Positions 2,111-60,369 of a DNA stretch of 64,000 nucleotides are shown here, in pieces. The DNA is taken from assembly GCF_019649055.1 (NCBI RefSeq), contig NW_026570230.1:186001-250000 (forward strand). Direction: 5' to 3'. This DNA comes from Paramacrobiotus metropolitanus. Lineage: Eukaryota; Tardigrada; Eutardigrada; Parachela; Macrobiotidae. Made by a program: the position numbers and the translations under genes. The number at the start of each line of letters is the position of its first letter. The first letter of the stretch is position 1. The notes below the pieces were generated by a model. That model was given only the letters and a program-made list of their open reading frames with translations. It was not told the origin of the DNA and ran no database searches.

Positions 2111-5245
<3,135 letters not shown>

Positions 5246-20500: not shown

Positions 20501-23500
20501 TTTCGTTCCAGAAAACAGCGACAGAAGGTGACTGATAACCGTAGTGAAGCAGAACAAGAATTGTTCTGTTATAAAACTTGACTGCCATATAGTCTGATTA
20601 TTCATCCCAGTCGATTAGCAATATCGGGCACAAAGATTTCCACTCATCTTCAGCGTTATGCCCACACCCTGCTGTATACAATACCGGTTCATCCAGCATG
20701 CTGTCAGGAAAAGTAATATATTTCATAGGAACATCTGTAGTTTAAGCGCTGTCGGTTAAGAGTTAACGCGTGTTGGGTTAATTGTTAGATGTTTACGTGT
20801 GCTTGACTAGTTCACTGAACGGGGATGTGGCGGAACGGAGGGGGTCGTGTGTGCTGCCCCGGTCCTGAAGAATCACTTCTCCACCCTCGTCCCAGTTGGT
20901 GGACGACGGCTAGCATATGTCCAGTGATGAATTTAGTTCAGTTTAAATATGACTACCTGGTAGTTAGAGCAGGATAATGTGTTTTCAAATAAGTGGTAGT
21001 CTGACGAAGGGTTGTCATTAGGAATTATGGATTATTTTCTCCTAATTCTTATCATGCTTCCCAGTTTTCTTTCCACCTGGATAAGCTGTGTAATGGGTAC
21101 ATCTTACCGGAATCTCAGAATTTTGCTTGGATTTCCGTCAGACGTTTTAAAGTTTTTTGTTTTGCAGCTGCTCAAAATGACCCGAAATTAGTCCTCCAGC
21201 CCGCAACCGGAAATCTCACTACAGCCATCGACAGCGATCCCTTTATAGAATGTACTGTCCAACCGCAGACCGCCAAAGGCGCCGTGGCCAACGTCCGCTG
21301 GCTGGATCCAGAAGGCAATGAAATCGGCGATAAAGGACTTAATAACAGGTATGCTGTAATCGCTCAATATAAATTGGTTCTGGTCATCAACGATATAAAT
21401 TGTGAAGCTGTTTGCCCGGCGGTTAAAGAAAAACTGGCTTTTAAAAAAAATAAATTGGCGGTTAAAGAAAATTAAATGCTGAATTTTTGCGAAATATCTG
21501 CTATTGTCGCTGTTTATTTTATTTGTGAATAAAATAAAATGTTTTATTAATTTCACAATGTCGGAAAATGTGCAGCGGCATATAGAAAAGAAATCTTGTA
21601 AATGGTATTCGTTAAAATATTTATTTATTCATCGTAGAAAGTACACAAAGAACGCATTTGGTGGAACTTTCGGGCGTAGTCTGAAATTCTTCAAAGGCCA
21701 AAAGGACGATTCCGGCCTGTACAAGTGTGTGGCAGATTTCTACGGTCACGACCGTCTGGAAACAGGAGTGTATGTGGTATTCTATGAGGATATCAAATTC
21801 GAGGATGCCCCGACGCTGCAGCATCCCCTTTTGAACACTGCTGGTAAAGTTCGTTGTCTGGTCAGCGGCAATCCGGCACCCATCGTCGAGTGGTGGCACA
21901 ATCAGGCCATTGTAACATCCGGTAAGACAGCGGTAAACAGGCGTGTCGTGATGCCGTTAGTAATATGGTAATGGCGTCGATTAACGGTGTATTCCTCGGG
22001 GATGCGATGTTTATGCGGTAATGCTGATGAGCAGGTGGGCGATATCGTGTGGAAACGGATGGATTGGTCATCGAGGATATCGGGGTGGAGGATAATGGTG
22101 AATATACTTGCACTGCCGCTGTGCCGGAGATGGGCCGGAGCATCGAAAGACAGATCAATGTGGAAGTTCACAGTAAGATACGTATTCTTCATCAGTTTAC
22201 GGTCATATCCAGATGGTTAATTATTGAATAGATAAGTAATAATTCTGAATAATGTTTTTAGTGTGTAATCAAGAACCGTTTGCAGAACACAGCTTGCATT
22301 TTTGGGAAATTGTAAATATTACTGAAACGATCCAAAATTTAAATTTCAAAAAAACAACCGACATCTTTCCGTTCGAGTACTACTACTACTAGTGCTTACC
22401 TTATAAACATATTTGTGTAAGTATGTATTGTATGGATATTTAGTTATGGAGTAATGGCGAAAATAGATTACAATTATTAGAATAAAATTTTGATACTGGG
22501 AACAAACAGTTTTCCGCCCAACGGCTGTCTTTGCTGTTTGCGAATATTGCGAATTTCTCTGTCCAGGTTAATAGGGCGTAACAAGTTCTGTATAGCGCTT
22601 GTAGTTTTAGAATGGTAATGATTTTAATACCTATCTTTTCGATATTTATAAGGATGCTTTCTCGTAGGTGCACCCGAATTTAAAGCTGACGGCTTACCGA
22701 AACCAGCCCGCGGTTTGGAAGGTCGCAGTGCCAGTATGGAATGTGAAGCTACCGGCATTCCGATGCCAGAAATCAAATGGATTTTCGTTCCTGTAAGTAT
22801 AGTCAAATTGAGTTGAACATTTTGAGAGCTTATTGTTTAGTAACTTTTCCAAGTGCAGCTATTTTTCATAAATACGAAAATTTATTATCTAGAATGGCGA
22901 AGATGTGACCAAGCTGGAGCACGACGAACAGAAAACACGCCGTCACACCGTAGATCCTGTAACTGGGACCATGAATATCAACGATCTGAAGAAAGTGGAC
23001 CAGGGTCAGTACAAGTGTATGGCCGAGAATGCCGCCGGTCGCAAGGAAGAAACCGCTGAGCTGTTTGTTGCGGAGAAGCCCCGTTTCGACGTGGTGACTA
23101 ACACCACCATGCATGAGAACAAATCAGCGACCATCGAGTGTACCGTGCGCGGAGATCCCGCTCCCACCCTTCGCTACATCCGCGAAGGCACGGAACTGCC
23201 CATTACGGCCGACACCGATCCGCGTTACGTGTTGGTGGAAAATGAGCGGGAGTTGCGGTTAACGATCAACGATCTGCAGCGGAGTGATGATGGACTGTAC
23301 ACGTGTGAAGCATCCAATGAAGCCGGTGTGGAGACGAAGGCCTCGCACATTACGGTGCAGTTTGCGCCGTCCTTTGCTAACACGCCAATGCACGTGGCCA
23401 AAACGTGGATGGGCAACCTGGAAGCGGTGAATATCACGTGTATTGCCGAGAGTATTCCCAATGCGACGATTCGGTGGCAGCAGAGGATTATCAATTCACC

Positions 23501-26248
23501 TCATCATCTACCTACGAAAGATATCACAGAACAAATGGAGCAGGATGGTTATAAAATCGAAAACCGTGGACCTTCTAGCAGTCTACTGGTAAATATTCTT
23601 GGAAGCGCATCGCATGCAAAATATCTTGAAAAATGTTGGTAAATTGAAAATTTTCTAGTAACAGGCTACATATAAAAAAATTGGTGGGATTGCAGTTAGA
23701 GCCTTTTTATTTGATTATTTTTTGTTTAGGTATCCGCTGTGTCTTATGACATTTTTGGAGAATATCTCTGTATCGCCAGTAATGAACTGGGCGAATCGAC
23801 CCACGTTGTCCGACTTCTCCAGGCCACGGTGCCTAAACCCATCGCTTCCGTGCGGGTGGAGGAACTGACAGCCACCACTGTGCGATTCGAGATTATCAGT
23901 CCCAATGACGACGAAAACTTAATATTAGAAGGATATGATGTGTTTTATATAAAAGTGGCAACCGAAGAAAACTTCCAGCAAGCGCCAGCGCGTAGCTGGC
24001 CCATCGGTGTGCCCTACACTGTTGAGGGTTTGGAGCCGGGTCGCAGCTACCGATTCCGTTTCTATCCCAAGAACAGAGTCGGCGTGGGAGCCGCTTTCGA
24101 TAAGGAAGTTAGTATGCCGGAAATCGGACCGCCTCGACCGCCGACTTTCCTTCCCAATGGAAATGACACCTCGGGTGAAGCTACCCGGTACCGTCTGCAA
24201 TGGCAGGAACCGAACGATAACGGAGCGAAGATTGTTGAGTACAAGATCACGTACTGGAAGGTAATGATTGCAGAAAAACAAGGAAGTGAAGTGTGAATAA
24301 TAGAACCAAATGAACCTTTTATAAACAATTTTTGTAGAAAAATAGATTAATAGATGTATAAAAATACCTTGTAGTTACTGGAACAATTGCGCATGGGCAT
24401 ATAGATATAAGTATTAATGCAATATAAGTATCGAGAGAAAAATCCATTCAAGTTTGGCCAATGAATTTCGATTTCCGTACTGAGGTACTTCATCGCTGGG
24501 TTGTGCGGTTTAAATATTTTACATCACAGAAAATATCACAACTCTTTTGGTAACCGTAGAGTAGCACACTGTAAAAACGTTCTACCCACTTCTGGCATTT
24601 ATTTTCTATTGTGTCAATTCTCGATATGCGTACTCTAAAGGAGTCTCTATCCAATGCTTTTATGCTGCTGGAACTTTGGTGCCATTTGTAGGTCTTTTAT
24701 CACTTTATTTCACTGTTGAAATAATTTTTGAAACCTTTTTTAGGCATCTGAAGGTAGAGAAGCTTCCCGTGTTGTAACAACCCGTGCACCTGCCAGTTCC
24801 TACGTGCTGACCGGTTTGGAAGGAGGGACCACGTACCAAGTGGAAATTGTAGCGCGTAACGAGCGGGGATTCAGTGCCCCTCTTGAACTTTTTTTCACAA
24901 CTGGACATGGTAAGCACCGAAGAATTGTTGGAATGTGTGTTGCTTTCCCCGTTGCCTGCTGCATTTGTTGTTTGACGCATTGCTTTGCTTGTTCCCCCGC
25001 GCTTGGCTTATAGGTCGCTTTTCATCGCACGCTTTGAGCTCCGGTAAGTCGATTATTCCGATGTCCGATGTGTTCCCCTTTAATTTATTTCACAGTCCCG
25101 CTTGTTGCGTAGCTTGTGCTGTTTTTCAGTTTTGTATAGATTCGCTTGTACATTTTTTGAAGTTATCATTGTACGTTGCAGCTCAAGGATTTCACAAAAT
25201 TGACCCGGTGGAAGGTGATGTACAGTTGTCGACACCGGTTATAATTGGAATTGCCGTTGCGGCAGGATTATTACTCGCCTTAATTATTGGTAAACAATCA
25301 TAACACCCAAGTTCACAATTTTTAGCCATAACAGAAATTCTGATTATTATTTGTTTGTATTTTGCAGATTTAACCTGCTTTTGTACGAGACATGCCGGTT
25401 TGACTCACTGGCTGGCCACTCGTCTTTGTGGAAAATCAGAGAAACTCAAAAATCATGATGTAGAAAATATTCGCCATACAGAGACGTAAGTTGCGATCAA
25501 TCGGGCATGTTTGTTGCTTGACAATGCTTTCTAATAAACCGTGCTGCATTGGGCTTCGTGTTGGGCGTATTGGTGTCCTGTTGATTGTGCTTGTGTGGGT
25601 GGTGCATCGCTTGCGAAAAATGTCTCCGCGCTTCGCAAACACATTTGAACACGAATGGATTGTGTTAAAAACCTTTTTATAGCGAAATAACACGAGAAGA
25701 AAGAGAACCTCTGACCACACCAAAACAAACAGCCACATACGTCAGAACCACGACGACCTTTAAGGAAGAGAAAGAACCGGAAGATAAACCCTCGCCACAG
25801 TAGTTCCTGAGTGACTGGCTAATATTTTCTGTAGTTTTCTCAACATGTAAGGAAAACTAACGCCCTCCTCTCCCTCCTCATAAATTCTTTGGGATTTTGT
25901 TTCCTTTCCGTGCACGTGACACCCTGTTACTAATACCAACCGTTATCTTATCTTACGAATTAGGGATCAGTAATTCATTTGCAATATATTAAAATTAATT
26001 TGCTGTTTTGTAGTGATCAAGTGGATAAAGCATCTTCGTATCTCATATTCAGCAATTTGGCATATCACGATAGTAATAAGCAGAATGGATCTAACACGGC
26101 CAACCGAACACAAAGCGACGACACGAATCTGTACGAACGTATCGCGGATTCGGGATTCTGCGAGGGCGATGAGCAGGGCAGGTATCAAGTGGGTGCCACA
26201 CGGTCCTTGTCCATGGGCAGCCTGGTCCAGTTGGAAACCGATGTATAG
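8537..26248 (+). CDS. Fas2: Fasciclin II / NCAM-type cell adhesion molecule
   Basis: Homophilic neural adhesion receptor at the cell surface. Exons: 8537-8603 (signal peptide MLAHSRQLITCLGVFLALSY), 21168-21348, 21638-21921, 22035-22172, 22668-22792, 22893-23588, 23730-24260, 24744-24909, optional 25014-25043, 25182-25289, 25368-25485, then either 25683-25803 or 26014-26248. Phases agree, giving 844 or 882 residues (10 more with the microexon). Five Ig domains each show the Cys pair (for example YKCVADF, YTCTAAV, YKCMAEN, YTCEASN, YLCIASN), followed by two FN3 domains and a helix at about residues 748-766. The juxtamembrane tail DLTCFCTRHAGL resembles the NCAM/fasciclin II tail, and EEREPLTTP resembles EKEPLRTP of Drosophila fasciclin II. 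Domain order and count match the family. The first intron is 12.6 kb. Linking the signal exon to the Ig1 exon rests on phase (G|CT) and the lack of a better candidate. Confidence 0.93.
10797..10826. repeat. 30-bp perfect palindrome
   Basis: Two 15-nt arms meet with no loop at a GAATTC centre (10809-10814). The sequence is AT-rich outside the centre. The function is unknown. Confidence 0.8.
13016..13040. repeat. 11-bp hairpin with 3-nt loop
   Basis: Arms 13016-13026 and 13030-13040 (ATATAAGGAAA and its complement) flank the loop TTC. A similar but shorter hairpin, GCTTCCTT-ATA-AAGGAAGC, lies at 10148-10166. These are probably incidental. Confidence 0.6.
25014..25043 (+). CDS. Fas2: 30-nt cassette microexon of the fasciclin II gene
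   Basis: A pyrimidine-rich tract plus TTATAG precedes base 25014 and a perfect GTAAGT donor follows 25043. The exon is 30 nt with phase 1 on both sides, so including it adds ten residues (GRFSSHALSS, the first codon being split) between the second FN3 domain and the membrane helix without shifting the frame. Skipping also keeps the frame (24909 to 25182). Small alternative exons at comparable sites are known in vertebrate NCAM. Its use cannot be shown without transcripts. Confidence 0.65.
25683..25803 (+). CDS. Fas2: Alternative last exon A of the fasciclin II gene
   Basis: Acceptor TTTTTATAG, then 40 cytoplasmic residues after the split Thr codon: TEITREEREPLTTPK at the start and PEDKPSPQ at the end, stop TAG. 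Rich in Pro, Glu, Ser and Thr, it recalls the PEST-containing transmembrane isoform of Drosophila fasciclin II. It competes with exon B at 26014, since both accept the same phase-2 donor at 25485. Confidence 0.75.
26014..26248 (+). CDS. Fas2: Alternative last exon B of the fasciclin II gene, PDZ-ligand end
   Basis: Acceptor GTTTTGTAG, the same phase as exon A, then 78 residues beginning TDQVDKASSYLIF and ending SLVQLETDV, stop TAG. The last four residues, ETDV, form a textbook class I PDZ ligand, identical to the ends of Shaker and Kv1.4 channels that bind Dlg/PSD-95. Using this exon would give the adhesion receptor a scaffold-binding tail that exon A lacks. An internal YHDSNKQNGSN stretch and LYERIADSG have no recognised motif. 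Confidence 0.75.
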
Positions 26249-55958: not shown

Positions 55959-58900
55959 TTAAAAAAACCGATTACCATAATACTGATTGTTGGATCTAGA
56001 TCCATAGCCGCTATCGAAACCGCTACGGCCGTAACCATTATTATTGGAGTTGTATCCGCCACCATTTCCACCGCCGTATCCACCTCCGTAGCCACCACCG
56101 TATCCACCCTGGCAACATTAAGAAAACTTAGCGTAATAACAGAAAAACAGAAAAAAATTTCAAATCATGGTCAGGGTAAAAGAGCTGCATATACTATCTG
56201 TACTTACGTACGGCTAATAAGATGAAATTTACTCCACATTTAACGCAAATTTTATTTTGACAGAAAGTTTACCAGCAGGAACGATTTACTTACAGACGGA
56301 TATGGCGGTAGTCCAGGTGCCGAAGGGTAACCGGGAGCCGGCGGAAGGCCAGGAGAAGAGGGGTAACCGGGAGCAGGCGGAAGTCCAGGAGAAGAGGGAT
56401 AACCGGGAGCCGGCGGAAGTCCAGGAGCAGAGGGATAACCTGGTGCAGGAGGCAGACCAGGCGCACTAGGATAGCCTGGAGCCGGCGGAAGTCCAGGTGC
56501 ATCTAAAAATAGCAAATGTTAAGTATTCATGTTTGGCTGAGTCGATACAGTTTGTCTGTACAGTATTTGTTATCGTTTAATACTTACTTGGCAGACCCGG
56601 TGCCGGAGGCAGTCCAGGAGCACCTAGTGATCGACGCACAGCAGTTAATTATTGTAACTGGGTTTTTAATGACCCCGGTGCCTATTGTACCTGGCAAACC
56701 CGGGGCGGGAGGAAGACCAGGTGCCGGCGGAAGTCCTGGAGCTCCTACACAAAATAAAGGTCATGCGTTGCAGTGAGCAATGCTGTATAACAGCGCAAGA
56801 AATCCTCGCGCCTTGCAGCTCCTTATAACCTAATTATAATTCAGCATTCTTGCAGGAATAAGGATATACTTAATTTACCTGGTAGAGCTGGTGCCGGTGG
56901 TAATCCGGGGGCAGGAGGCAGCCCCGGCGCTCCTGTTAAATTTCTTGGTTTTACAAGTTGTTCAAGCAGATTTTAACTTTGAGAGTGCATTTCAGCGCAG
57001 ACTTAATAATATACTAATTTCCAGATAGGACCAGACTTATCTGTGTATGTTCTTGTACGTACAAAAATAAGTTTTTAATACTAGCAAGTGGCAACAATTT
57101 ACCGGGCAAAGCAGGTGCCGGAGGTAAGCCGGGCGCTGGTGGTAACCCAGGTGCACCTTAGAAAACAACATTGTACCTTTGGCAATCACCATTCATTTTA
57201 TTTTGCGCAAGATTTGAAATATGCGACATAAGGCCAACAGGCAAAGCACATTTTCGTTGAGGAAATTCTTACCAGGGAGTGCCGGTGCAGGGGGTAGACC
57301 GGGCGCGGGTGGCAATCCGGGAGCACCTTTACAACATATAAATTTATTAGGAGCCCACAAACAGAGAATCTAGATAATACTGTAAATCTTTGACAGAATA
57401 TTTGCAGATCCTTGTTATTTTTAGTATCTTGCAAAGTTTTGCTGGCAGAAAACAAAATACAGTACGTAAACCGTCGCACTGTCAACTGTCCGTTAGGTAT
57501 ATAGCCGGTGAATAACAAATTGTATGGATACGGTATATATTTTTTTTATACATATGTCAGTTGCCATCATACGTACCAGGTAAGGCCGGTGCGGGTGGAA
57601 GTCCTGGAGACGGTGGTAGCCCGGGAGCTCCTTCAACATACAATTATGTTATCATATGTTTTACTTAAAAAAATTGAACGTTTAAAGGTTGCCTGGCAAA
57701 GCGGGCGCTGGAGGCAATCCAGGTGACGGTGGTAATCCAGGCGCTCCTACAAGCATACGAAAATAACTAATCACTTGACAGTATTTACGCATCAGTTAGG
57801 GGCTTGTAGCATTGATACAAACTCCGTACGAAATAGTTGCACACATCAATAAACGATAGTTAACGATGACAAGAGGTGCAACAGCACAACAATAAGTAAC
57901 CTGGTAGATACTCAGTTTTAAAAAATTAAGGTGTACGCTAACCTGGCAGTGCTGGCGCCGGGGGCAAACCGGGCGCCGGCGGAAGGCCTGGTGCATCTGT
58001 TGCAAACACACGCCACGCAGCAGTTAGTCAAGATGCTCATGAGACGCTCCCATTTTTTTACTGTTTGCCTTCCGCCGTCCTCACGTGATGTTTACCGTGG
58101 CTGCTGAGCTACCTGGTTACTAAATTAATTACCTACAAGTCTACTGCAATTAAAATTCACCGAAGTTTAATAAGAAGCTGGAAGCCTCGTTCAATAGTAA
58201 ATCCTCAGCCCAATAAACTGACTGAACTTTCTCATGCTTAATAATAATTACTTGGTAATGCCGGTGCTGGTGGCAGTCCAGGCGATGGTGGAAGGCCGGG
58301 TGCTCCTGTGAAATAAGAATGATATTTGGTATTTTACCATACCTTATACCAGTATCTGTAGCCTGGCAGTAGGTACCAGCTGCAGATCCAGGTAGGTACG
58401 CGTTGGATAAGACAAGATGCACATGTCTTCTCCGGCTAAAAGTTTCGAGTTTTGTATTAAGCTTTCTAAACACCAAATACGAAGTTGCTTTGTTACTTGG
58501 TTGACACAAAACCGTCCTGTGTCATGTATTTGCACAGAGTGATCATGATGTTCATTTTGGGCACATTTGGATTCTGTACCTGGCAATGCTGGTGCAGGTG
58601 GCAGGCCGGGCGAAGGCGGCAGGCCAGGGGCTCCTGCAAAAACTTCCTTGTAAATTGAGAAGGCGTAATAAGGCGTAACGTAATGATTTGAGCAGAATAT
58701 GCACAGCATTCTGCTTTATTCGTGATAAAGGCGTATGCCGTTTTCTTGCAACTAAGCGGCCATAAGAATTTACAATAGGTACACTAACAGATAGGTATTG
58801 GAAATTCTATTACATCAAAATGTACCGGGTAATGCAGGTGCCGGGGGTAAGCCTGGTGATGGAGGCAGTCCGGGAGCTCCTGTATATCGGAAAGGTCAAG

Positions 58901-60369
58901 AACATCAGTGTCTCTTAAGCATTAAACGACTGCATTAAACTGCACAGAATTTTTAACGTTACTGTATTTACCTGGTAGTGCCGGGGCTGGCGGTAATCCT
59001 GGAGATGGTGGCAGACCTGGTGCACCTGCATTTCATGTACCCAGTGTCAGTTTTACCTTCATTGTTCGCCCTGTCTTATCAGCGCATCACAGCGCGATTA
59101 CAAACCGGGCAGTGCTGGAGCGGGCGGTAAACCAGGGGACGGCGGCAATCCAGGAGCGCCTGTAACGTTAAACGGCTTGCTTCGTTCGTCAGCACAATAC
59201 TACTATCGCTGAACAAGCCTAAAGTCTTCAATCTTGCAGTTGCACAAAACATGGATGTACCTGGTAAAGCGGGTGCCGGTGGCAGACCGGGTGCGGGCGG
59301 TAACCCAGGAGCACCTATACGGTAATACAGTCAGCTGACTTCATCGCTAGCAATTTCTGTATCTTCCGCACTATGGTGCAAATATACAGGTAAAGTGTCG
59401 GCACAGGACATCAGTTTGAGTACCTGGAAGCGCAGGCGCAGGCGGTAGACCAGGAGAAGGAGGCAGTCCCGGAGCACCTGGAAATTATATCACGACTAAA
59501 GTGCGGGAGTACGAATAGGATACGCATGCAGATACGTCTGCGTGCATTACAGTTTGTGCATATTGTTTACCTGTGATTGGACGACGCTAACGTCCAGGTG
59601 ATGGTGGTAAACCCGGTGCCCCTGTTGAAATGTAAAACAGCTTTGAATACGATACAATAAGTACGTTACACTGTACGCTCCTGAACCATGGAAAACGTAC
59701 CAGGCAGCGCGGGAGCGGGAGGGTATCCCGGACTAGGCGGTAAACCCGGAGCGCCCGGAAGAGATGGACTGGGCGGATAACCCGGGCTGGGCGGAAGTCC
59801 CGGGGAGGAGGGGTAATCCGGACTGGGAGGCAGCCCAGGAGAAGACGGATACCCCGGGCTAGGAGGTAGTCCAGGTGACGATGGATATCCTGGACTGGGA
59901 GGTAGTCCAGGAGAGGACGGGTATCCTGGACTGGGCGGCAGTCCCGGAGACGTGGGATAGCCGGGACTGGGAGGGGGGCCGGGTGCTGACGGATAACCGG
60001 GCATACTAGGTGCTACCGCACTGGGAGGATAAGGAACTGAAGGATAGGAGGCACCGGTGCCGTATCCATTATCACCGCCATTGTTACCGCTACTCGAGCC
60101 AGCCGAGTATCCGTTGGATCCGGAATTGCCGTATCCAAGTTGGTTTAATGTGGCGTCTCCGTATTGTGTAGCACGGAGTGCCGCTGTTAAATTAAACCGT
60201 GATTTGCATATCGTTTTACAATGACTGACCCTGGTGAGCAGGCATGATATTTATACAATATGTATGTACCGTACAATAAGTCACAATTTATTAGATGTGC
60301 ATAAGCTGATAAGCAAAACCGTTCATGCTTACCAATGCAGCTGAAGAAGAATATTAAATGCGAAATCAT
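55959..60369 (-). CDS. Secreted Pro/Gly/Tyr-rich repeat protein built from 54-nt microexons
   Basis: Exons, 5' to 3': 60369-60333 (hydrophobic start MISHLIFFFSCI), 60183-59701, fourteen 54-nt exons (59477-59424, 59314-59261, 59159-59106, 59025-58972, 58879-58826, 58633-58580, 58305-58252, 57996-57943, 57746-57693, 57630-57577, 57326-57273, 57156-57103, 56932-56879, 56744-56691), a 36-nt exon 56623-56588, 56502-56294 and 56108-55959. They sum to 1671 nt, giving 556 residues. After the signal comes a Gly/Asn/Ser/Tyr region, then repeats of PGYPSSPGLPPS, then microexons encoding APGLPPAPGLPPAPALP with Ser/Ala variation, more PGYP repeats and a Gly/Tyr-rich end (GGYGGGYGGGYGGGN, YYGNRFF). All microexons are phase 1 on both sides. 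Composition suggests an extracellular structural, cuticular or adhesive protein; no family is recognised. Minus-strand splice sites decide the strand. Confidence 0.8.
59571..59621 (-). pseudogene. Degenerate repeat exon with in-frame stop
   Basis: In the Pro-rich gene, acceptor TTCAACAG leads into GAPGLPPSPGR and then TAG, RRPIT and a normal-looking GTAAAC donor (51 nt). The first half matches the repeat and the second half has decayed. Splicing instead at an internal GTTAGC (exon 59621-59592, 30 nt) would avoid the stop and keep phase 1. GTTAGC is also the donor of the intact exon 57996-57943. It is either a dead exon that is skipped or a shortened working one. Confidence 0.6.

Follow-up and report, generated by a model that had tools for sequence, protein, structure and literature searches.

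A proline-triplet repeat protein encoded by an array of 54-nt exons in the tardigrade Paramacrobiotus metropolitanus, a candidate rod-like structural protein

Tropoelastin is encoded by symmetric exons, with an alternation of spacer and cross-link parts, and elastin is cross-linked via lysine. Flagelliform silk genes are repetitive in the same way as those coding for MaSp2 silk, and one class of arthropod cuticular proteins is defined by a chitin-binding domain. In the fibrillar collagens, exons of 54 bp are described as the most common and as skippable (PMC9320522), and the arrays of spider MaSp2 are described as having homogenised exons and introns (PMC9779670). The APPG and IDP families of the Caenorhabditis elegans pharyngeal cuticle are reported to be secreted, of low complexity and biased against charged residues, and the proteins that peak when new cuticle is being built are reported to be rich in cysteine, proline and glutamine (PMC9629831). 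In the open-access literature searched, including that on tardigrade cuticle proteins, a description of a gene or protein such as the one reported here was not found, and a word search of one P. metropolitanus transcriptome paper returned no mention of cuticle, proline, eggshell or collagen.

The window, that is, the whole 64-kb stretch of DNA analyzed here (GC content 42.4%), contains on its minus strand a complete gene of 19 exons, running from position 60369 to 55959, with a coding sequence of 1671 nt that specifies 556 residues and a stop codon (Table 1). Seventeen of the 18 introns are GT-AG and one, after exon 11, is GC-AG; 17 of them are in phase 1 and the last one in phase 0, with lengths ranging from 62 to 274 nt across the gene. 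Exons 3 to 16, all of 54 nt, and the 36-nt exon 17 make up an array spanning 59477-56588, in which every exon is in phase 1-1 and is preceded by an AG acceptor (15 of 15) and followed by a GT donor (14 of 15) or, once, by GC. These coordinates and splice edges confirm the fourteen 54-nt exons and the single shorter one that had been claimed in an earlier, sequence-only reading of this DNA, and its further claims that each symmetric exon carries one repeat and could be skipped in frame are likewise supported. The GC donor has the sequence CAG/GCAACC, and its intron (57692-57631, 62 nt) is the shortest of the gene. Two junctions are odd (58252/57996 and 56588/56502): exons 9 and 17 end in A and exons 10 and 18 start with AT, so that asparagine is encoded at both, and a one-sided change at such a junction would yield serine or aspartate. 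Exons 1, 2, 18 and 19 and a relic exon were absent from the earlier reading. The gene model, its coding strand and its triplet register are established by the sequence itself; splicing would proceed as modelled, the 556-residue product is probably secreted, and its hydrophobic N-terminal start, MISHLIFFFSCIAALRA, is signal-like by eye.

Table 1. Exons of the 19-exon gene and the associated relic exon, in positions of the window.
Feature	Position	Strand	Description
Exon 1	60333..60369	-	37 nt; ATG and most of the signal-like peptide (MISHLIFFFSCI...); donor GTAAGC
Exon 2	59701..60183	-	483 nt, phase 1-1
Relic exon	59571..59621	-	51 nt; GAPGLPPSPGR, then in-frame TAG; profile match 59619-59593, E 1.5e-4
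Array exon 3	59424..59477	-	54 nt
Array exon 4	59261..59314	-	54 nt
Array exon 5	59106..59159	-	54 nt
Array exon 6	58972..59025	-	54 nt
Array exon 7	58826..58879	-	54 nt
Array exon 8	58580..58633	-	54 nt
Array exon 9	58252..58305	-	54 nt; final base A, so that the junction with exon 10 encodes Asn
Array exon 10	57943..57996	-	54 nt; starts with AT (junction Asn)
Array exon 11	57693..57746	-	54 nt; GC donor
Array exon 12	57577..57630	-	54 nt
Array exon 13	57273..57326	-	54 nt
Array exon 14	57103..57156	-	54 nt
Array exon 15	56879..56932	-	54 nt
Array exon 16	56691..56744	-	54 nt; GLP at the end in place of ALP
Array exon 17	56588..56623	-	36 nt (GAPGLPPAPGLP)
Exon 18	56294..56502	-	209 nt, phase 1-0; five 12-residue repeats GLPPAPGYPS(A/S)P
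Exon 19	55959..56108	-	150 nt; Gly/Tyr/Asn/Ser-rich C-terminus and stop

The unit had been given previously as GAP GLP PAP GLP PAP ALP. This version is exact in four of the 14 units, but GAP GLP PSP GLP PAP ALP, found in eight, is more frequent; one unit has asparagine first and one has GLP last. Variation in amino acid is confined to two of the 17 whole codons per array exon, residue 8 being serine or alanine (8:6) and residue 16 alanine or glycine (13:1), together with the junction residue, which is glycine or, once, asparagine. The PAP units are those of exons 4, 10 and 13-16, and four of these six lie at the 3' end of the array, adjoining the PAP-bearing exons 17 and 18. Exon 2 proceeds from a segment rich in glycine, serine, asparagine and tyrosine, through tyrosine-bearing 12-residue repeats (GYPSSPGLPPSP), to a single copy of the 18-residue unit (GAPGLPPSPGYPPAPALP), which occupies its last 18 codons, has tyrosine in place of one leucine and ends at the donor (last 52 nt, profile E 1.6e-4). 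The serine codons of the PSP triplets are TCN in the array (8 of 8) and AGY in the exon-2 repeats (5 of 5), and hence the serine of the array derives probably from the alanine (GCN) of a PAP-type ancestor. A DNA profile built from the 14 array exons and run against the whole 64 kb recovers these exons at E 1.2e-11 or better, followed by other parts of the same gene, with no match under E = 1 in the window outside the gene (best E 1.2, at 3925-3943). A gene of the cell-adhesion type lies elsewhere in the window, on the plus strand, where 22905-24296 encodes immunoglobulin I-set and fibronectin III stretches.

At the protein level, residues 69 to 506 form a core of 438 residues composed of 146 unbroken xxP triplets. 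The first position of these is taken by glycine (71), proline (44), alanine (14), serine (12) and others (5), in agreement with the earlier claim that not all triplets of the translated strand contain glycine, and the second by leucine (58), alanine (49), serine (23), tyrosine (14) and others (2). Proline accounts for 195 of the 556 residues, cysteine for one and glutamine for three, and lysine, glutamate and tryptophan are absent. Of 28 tyrosines, 14 precede the array and 14 follow it, with none in the 264 residues encoded by exons 3-17, and the ends of the protein are rich in glycine, serine, asparagine and tyrosine. A polyproline-II helix has three residues per turn and rises by about 3.1 angstrom per residue, and tyrosine can serve in protein cross-linking. 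Given proline at each third residue of the core, an extended polyproline-II helix should be favored, which would measure roughly 136 nm if the core were wholly in this form and would present proline on one face and leucine or tyrosine about every sixth residue on another. An AlphaFold model of exons 1-2 (173 residues, computed without an alignment; mean pLDDT 55.6), the sole helix of which covers residues 2-30, is uninformative in this respect, neither favoring nor opposing polyproline-II. On balance, we favor the view that this P. metropolitanus gene codes for a single secreted structural protein, a rod-like spacer with a polyproline-II core in the extracellular matrix, such as that of the cuticle or the eggshell. 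The tyrosine-free middle, derived from the 15 symmetric exons, would constitute the spacer, the length of which would be set by exon number in steps of 18 residues, and the tyrosine-bearing repeats and Gly/Tyr-rich tails would provide ends that are sticky or may be cross-linked through the 14 tyrosines on each side.

Exons that are old in their DNA but code for almost unchanged protein suggest a rod-like material and not membership of a family recognizable here. In Pfam, at E up to 0.1, the only match is to formin FH1, which at 20.7 bits falls short of its cut-off of 40, with neither a collagen repeat or C-propeptide domain nor a chitin-binding domain detected at that threshold; no Pfam family is matched above its cut-off, in line with the sequence-only reading. 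Among solved structures, 8zxl ('spindlefibril/axialfibril') is matched at E 2.6e-60, a compositional match that we do not count as a relative: with a shorter query its whole-sequence E is 2.9e-47, but the aligned stretch has an independent E of 0.054 and is a collagen-like repeat of Gly-Ala-Pro type. The remaining structural matches are weak, and the alignments inspected consist of proline-rich stretches. Against the genome, the repeat query yields 18 matches, 14 at the locus and four elsewhere (C79, C52, C152 and C8), the C-terminal query seven, four at the locus and three elsewhere (C11, C162 and C152), and the N-terminal query matches at this locus only. No second xxP array or paralogue was seen in the genome on inspection of the six outside places, although weak matches may escape such a search. 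In C79 the frame that matches is itself a Gly-X-Y stretch of collagen-like type, and the C152 match comes from the opposite strand of a collagen-like gene, the plus-strand runs of which include 24, 22 and 35 Gly-X-Y triplets. The C11 match is a different protein bearing a proline-rich stretch, that in C162 is rich in glycine, asparagine and glutamine, and those in C52 and C8 are LPDQPE-type repeats. Runs of at least eight xxP triplets are absent from C52, C8, C11 and C162, and the only ones found, of 14 triplets in C79 and of up to 35 in C152, all lie opposite Gly-X-Y runs. The collagen-like gene in C152 (L005, C152:255500-262000) exemplifies a general trap, in that its reverse complement mimics xxP in translated searches; in C52 and C8, the repeats of L004 and L013 are of the LPDQPELPDQPE type, with short runs of proline at every third residue.

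Comparison with the systems introduced above reveals partial likenesses. Fibrillar collagens are described as having 18 residues per exon, exons that are skippable in frame and a register kept across exon borders (PMC9320522), and 14 of the 15 array exons here are likewise of 54 nt and encode 18 residues. Unlike in collagen, however, the obligate third residue is proline instead of glycine, the array introns are in phase 1 whereas most collagen exons consist of complete codons, and there is no collagen family match in Pfam. With tropoelastin the gene shares symmetric exons and an alternation of putative spacer and cross-link parts, but the lack of lysine among its 556 residues precludes lysine cross-link exons. 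The low complexity, the bias against charged residues and the putative secretion are reminiscent of the APPG and IDP proteins from the cuticle of C. elegans, likewise an ecdysozoan, from which the protein differs in its low content of cysteine and glutamine and in its strict triplet register. It differs also from the chitin-binding cuticular proteins of arthropods in having no Pfam match to their defining domain.

Two further readings of the locus are disfavored. Since proline at every third residue reads as glycine at every third residue in the reverse complement, the plus strand of the array spells out 54-nt blocks of Gly-X-Y like those of fibrillar collagens (PMC9320522) and could be taken for a fibrillar-collagen-like gene (e.g. 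GKPGAGGRPGAGGSPGAP). We attach next to no credence to this possibility, because the glycine periodicity is merely what the complement of the proline one produces, none of the 15 plus-strand blocks is preceded by a flush AG, only five are directly followed by a GT, and the glycine frame encounters six stops in exon 2 and five in exon 18. Moreover, column entropy across the 14 exons averages 0.238, 0.041 and 1.665 bits at minus-strand codon positions 1, 2 and 3, respectively, all 18 third-position columns being variable. The variation falls in third codon positions of the minus strand, which would be second positions on the plus strand; this identifies the minus strand as the coding one and rejects the collagen reading. 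Coding from the other strand, on the absence of which the sequence-only reading had made itself contingent, therefore fails as far as the sequence can tell. A young array, in which exons had recently been duplicated together with their introns and gene conversion kept the copies alike, as in the MaSp2 silk genes of spiders, would in turn explain the near identity of the protein units and the identical size and phase of the exons, and the gene resembles MaSp2 in coding for a putative structural protein with repetitive exon/intron organization and nested repeats. Such an origin is nonetheless very improbable. The 91 pairs formed by the 14 array exons have a mean pS of 0.778 and a mean pN of 0.034, and where their amino acids match, identity at the third position amounts to 0.292, compared with a codon-permutation mean of 0.279 (reached in 204 of 2000 permutations). 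The 13 adjacent pairs behave alike (0.283 against 0.277; 850 of 2000), similarity does not decay with exon distance (Mantel r 0.08, one-sided p 0.79), and a shared synonymous history among the 14 exons is undetectable. No convincing homology was found among the 153 pairs of the 18 introns (mean z 0.42, from 60 mononucleotide shuffles per pair). Three pairs reach z just over 4 in short alignments with scores of only 22-25, which are unconvincing in view of the many pairs and of the extreme-value shape of alignment scores. In contrast, MaSp2 introns are described as strongly homogenised within a gene (PMC9779670). The saturation of synonymous sites and the unalignable introns imply that any exon-plus-intron duplications are old; the growth mode proposed in the sequence-only reading, whose interpretation as a whole is partly supported, may hold for such old events, with no recent process being visible. 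Exon duplication is evidently ancient and constraint at the protein level strong.

Other alternatives concern what the gene product does. A low-complexity, disordered protein, such as a secretory lubricant, a gland product or an adhesive, would owe its register to repeat history alone and form no polyproline-II rod. We consider this less probable than not, but a serious contender, for the composition is biased and exons 1-2 have no predicted fold; yet a mean pN of 0.034 at saturated pS, which repeat history alone would not produce, shows selection on almost all residues of the unit. The exons of the array may also be skipped, and it is conceivable, if rather doubtful, that they act as alternatively spliced cassettes producing several rod lengths, with the relic as a poison exon tuning expression. 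All 15 are symmetric, but symmetry is to be expected anyway from the duplication of one exon. The relic exon retains its AG and GTAAAC edges and contains an in-frame TAG, and may hence be either a decaying part of the array or a poison exon; the loss of the match to the repeat in its last 22 nt fits plain decay.

The two kinds of repeat present in the gene differ in their synonymous sites. The five repeats of exon 18, which are not split by introns, have a third-position identity of 0.529 against 0.378 by permutation (0 of 1000 reach it), compared with 0.277 against 0.274 (357 of 1000) when 12 residues are taken from each array unit, 14 in all, and the exon-2 repeats show a weak excess (0.366 against 0.307; 53 of 1000). 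At least one uninterrupted repeat block, that of exon 18, is by this measure younger than the array or partly homogenised. It may be, then, that introns stabilize coding repeats, a proposal that is drawn from one gene and that exon 2 supports weakly. Extending the rod-like spacer that we favor, we tentatively suggest that the gene could represent a lineage-specific class of proteins, an idea that we regard as speculative, in which the obligate third residue is proline, a single chain forms a polyproline-II rod with tyrosine-bearing ends, length is quantised in 54-nt steps, introns have guarded the repeat against slippage and homogenisation over a time sufficient for synonymous sites to become random while selection on the protein preserved each 18-residue unit, and the exon rule of collagen has been reached independently.

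The array provides a second case of 54-nt exons coding for 18 residues in a protein with triplet register, apparently independent of collagen, and the reason for the 54-nt size, be it protein register, splicing or founder chance, becomes comparable between the two. Likewise, the coexistence in one gene of intron-separated and uninterrupted repeats makes the idea that introns stabilize repeats a testable one.
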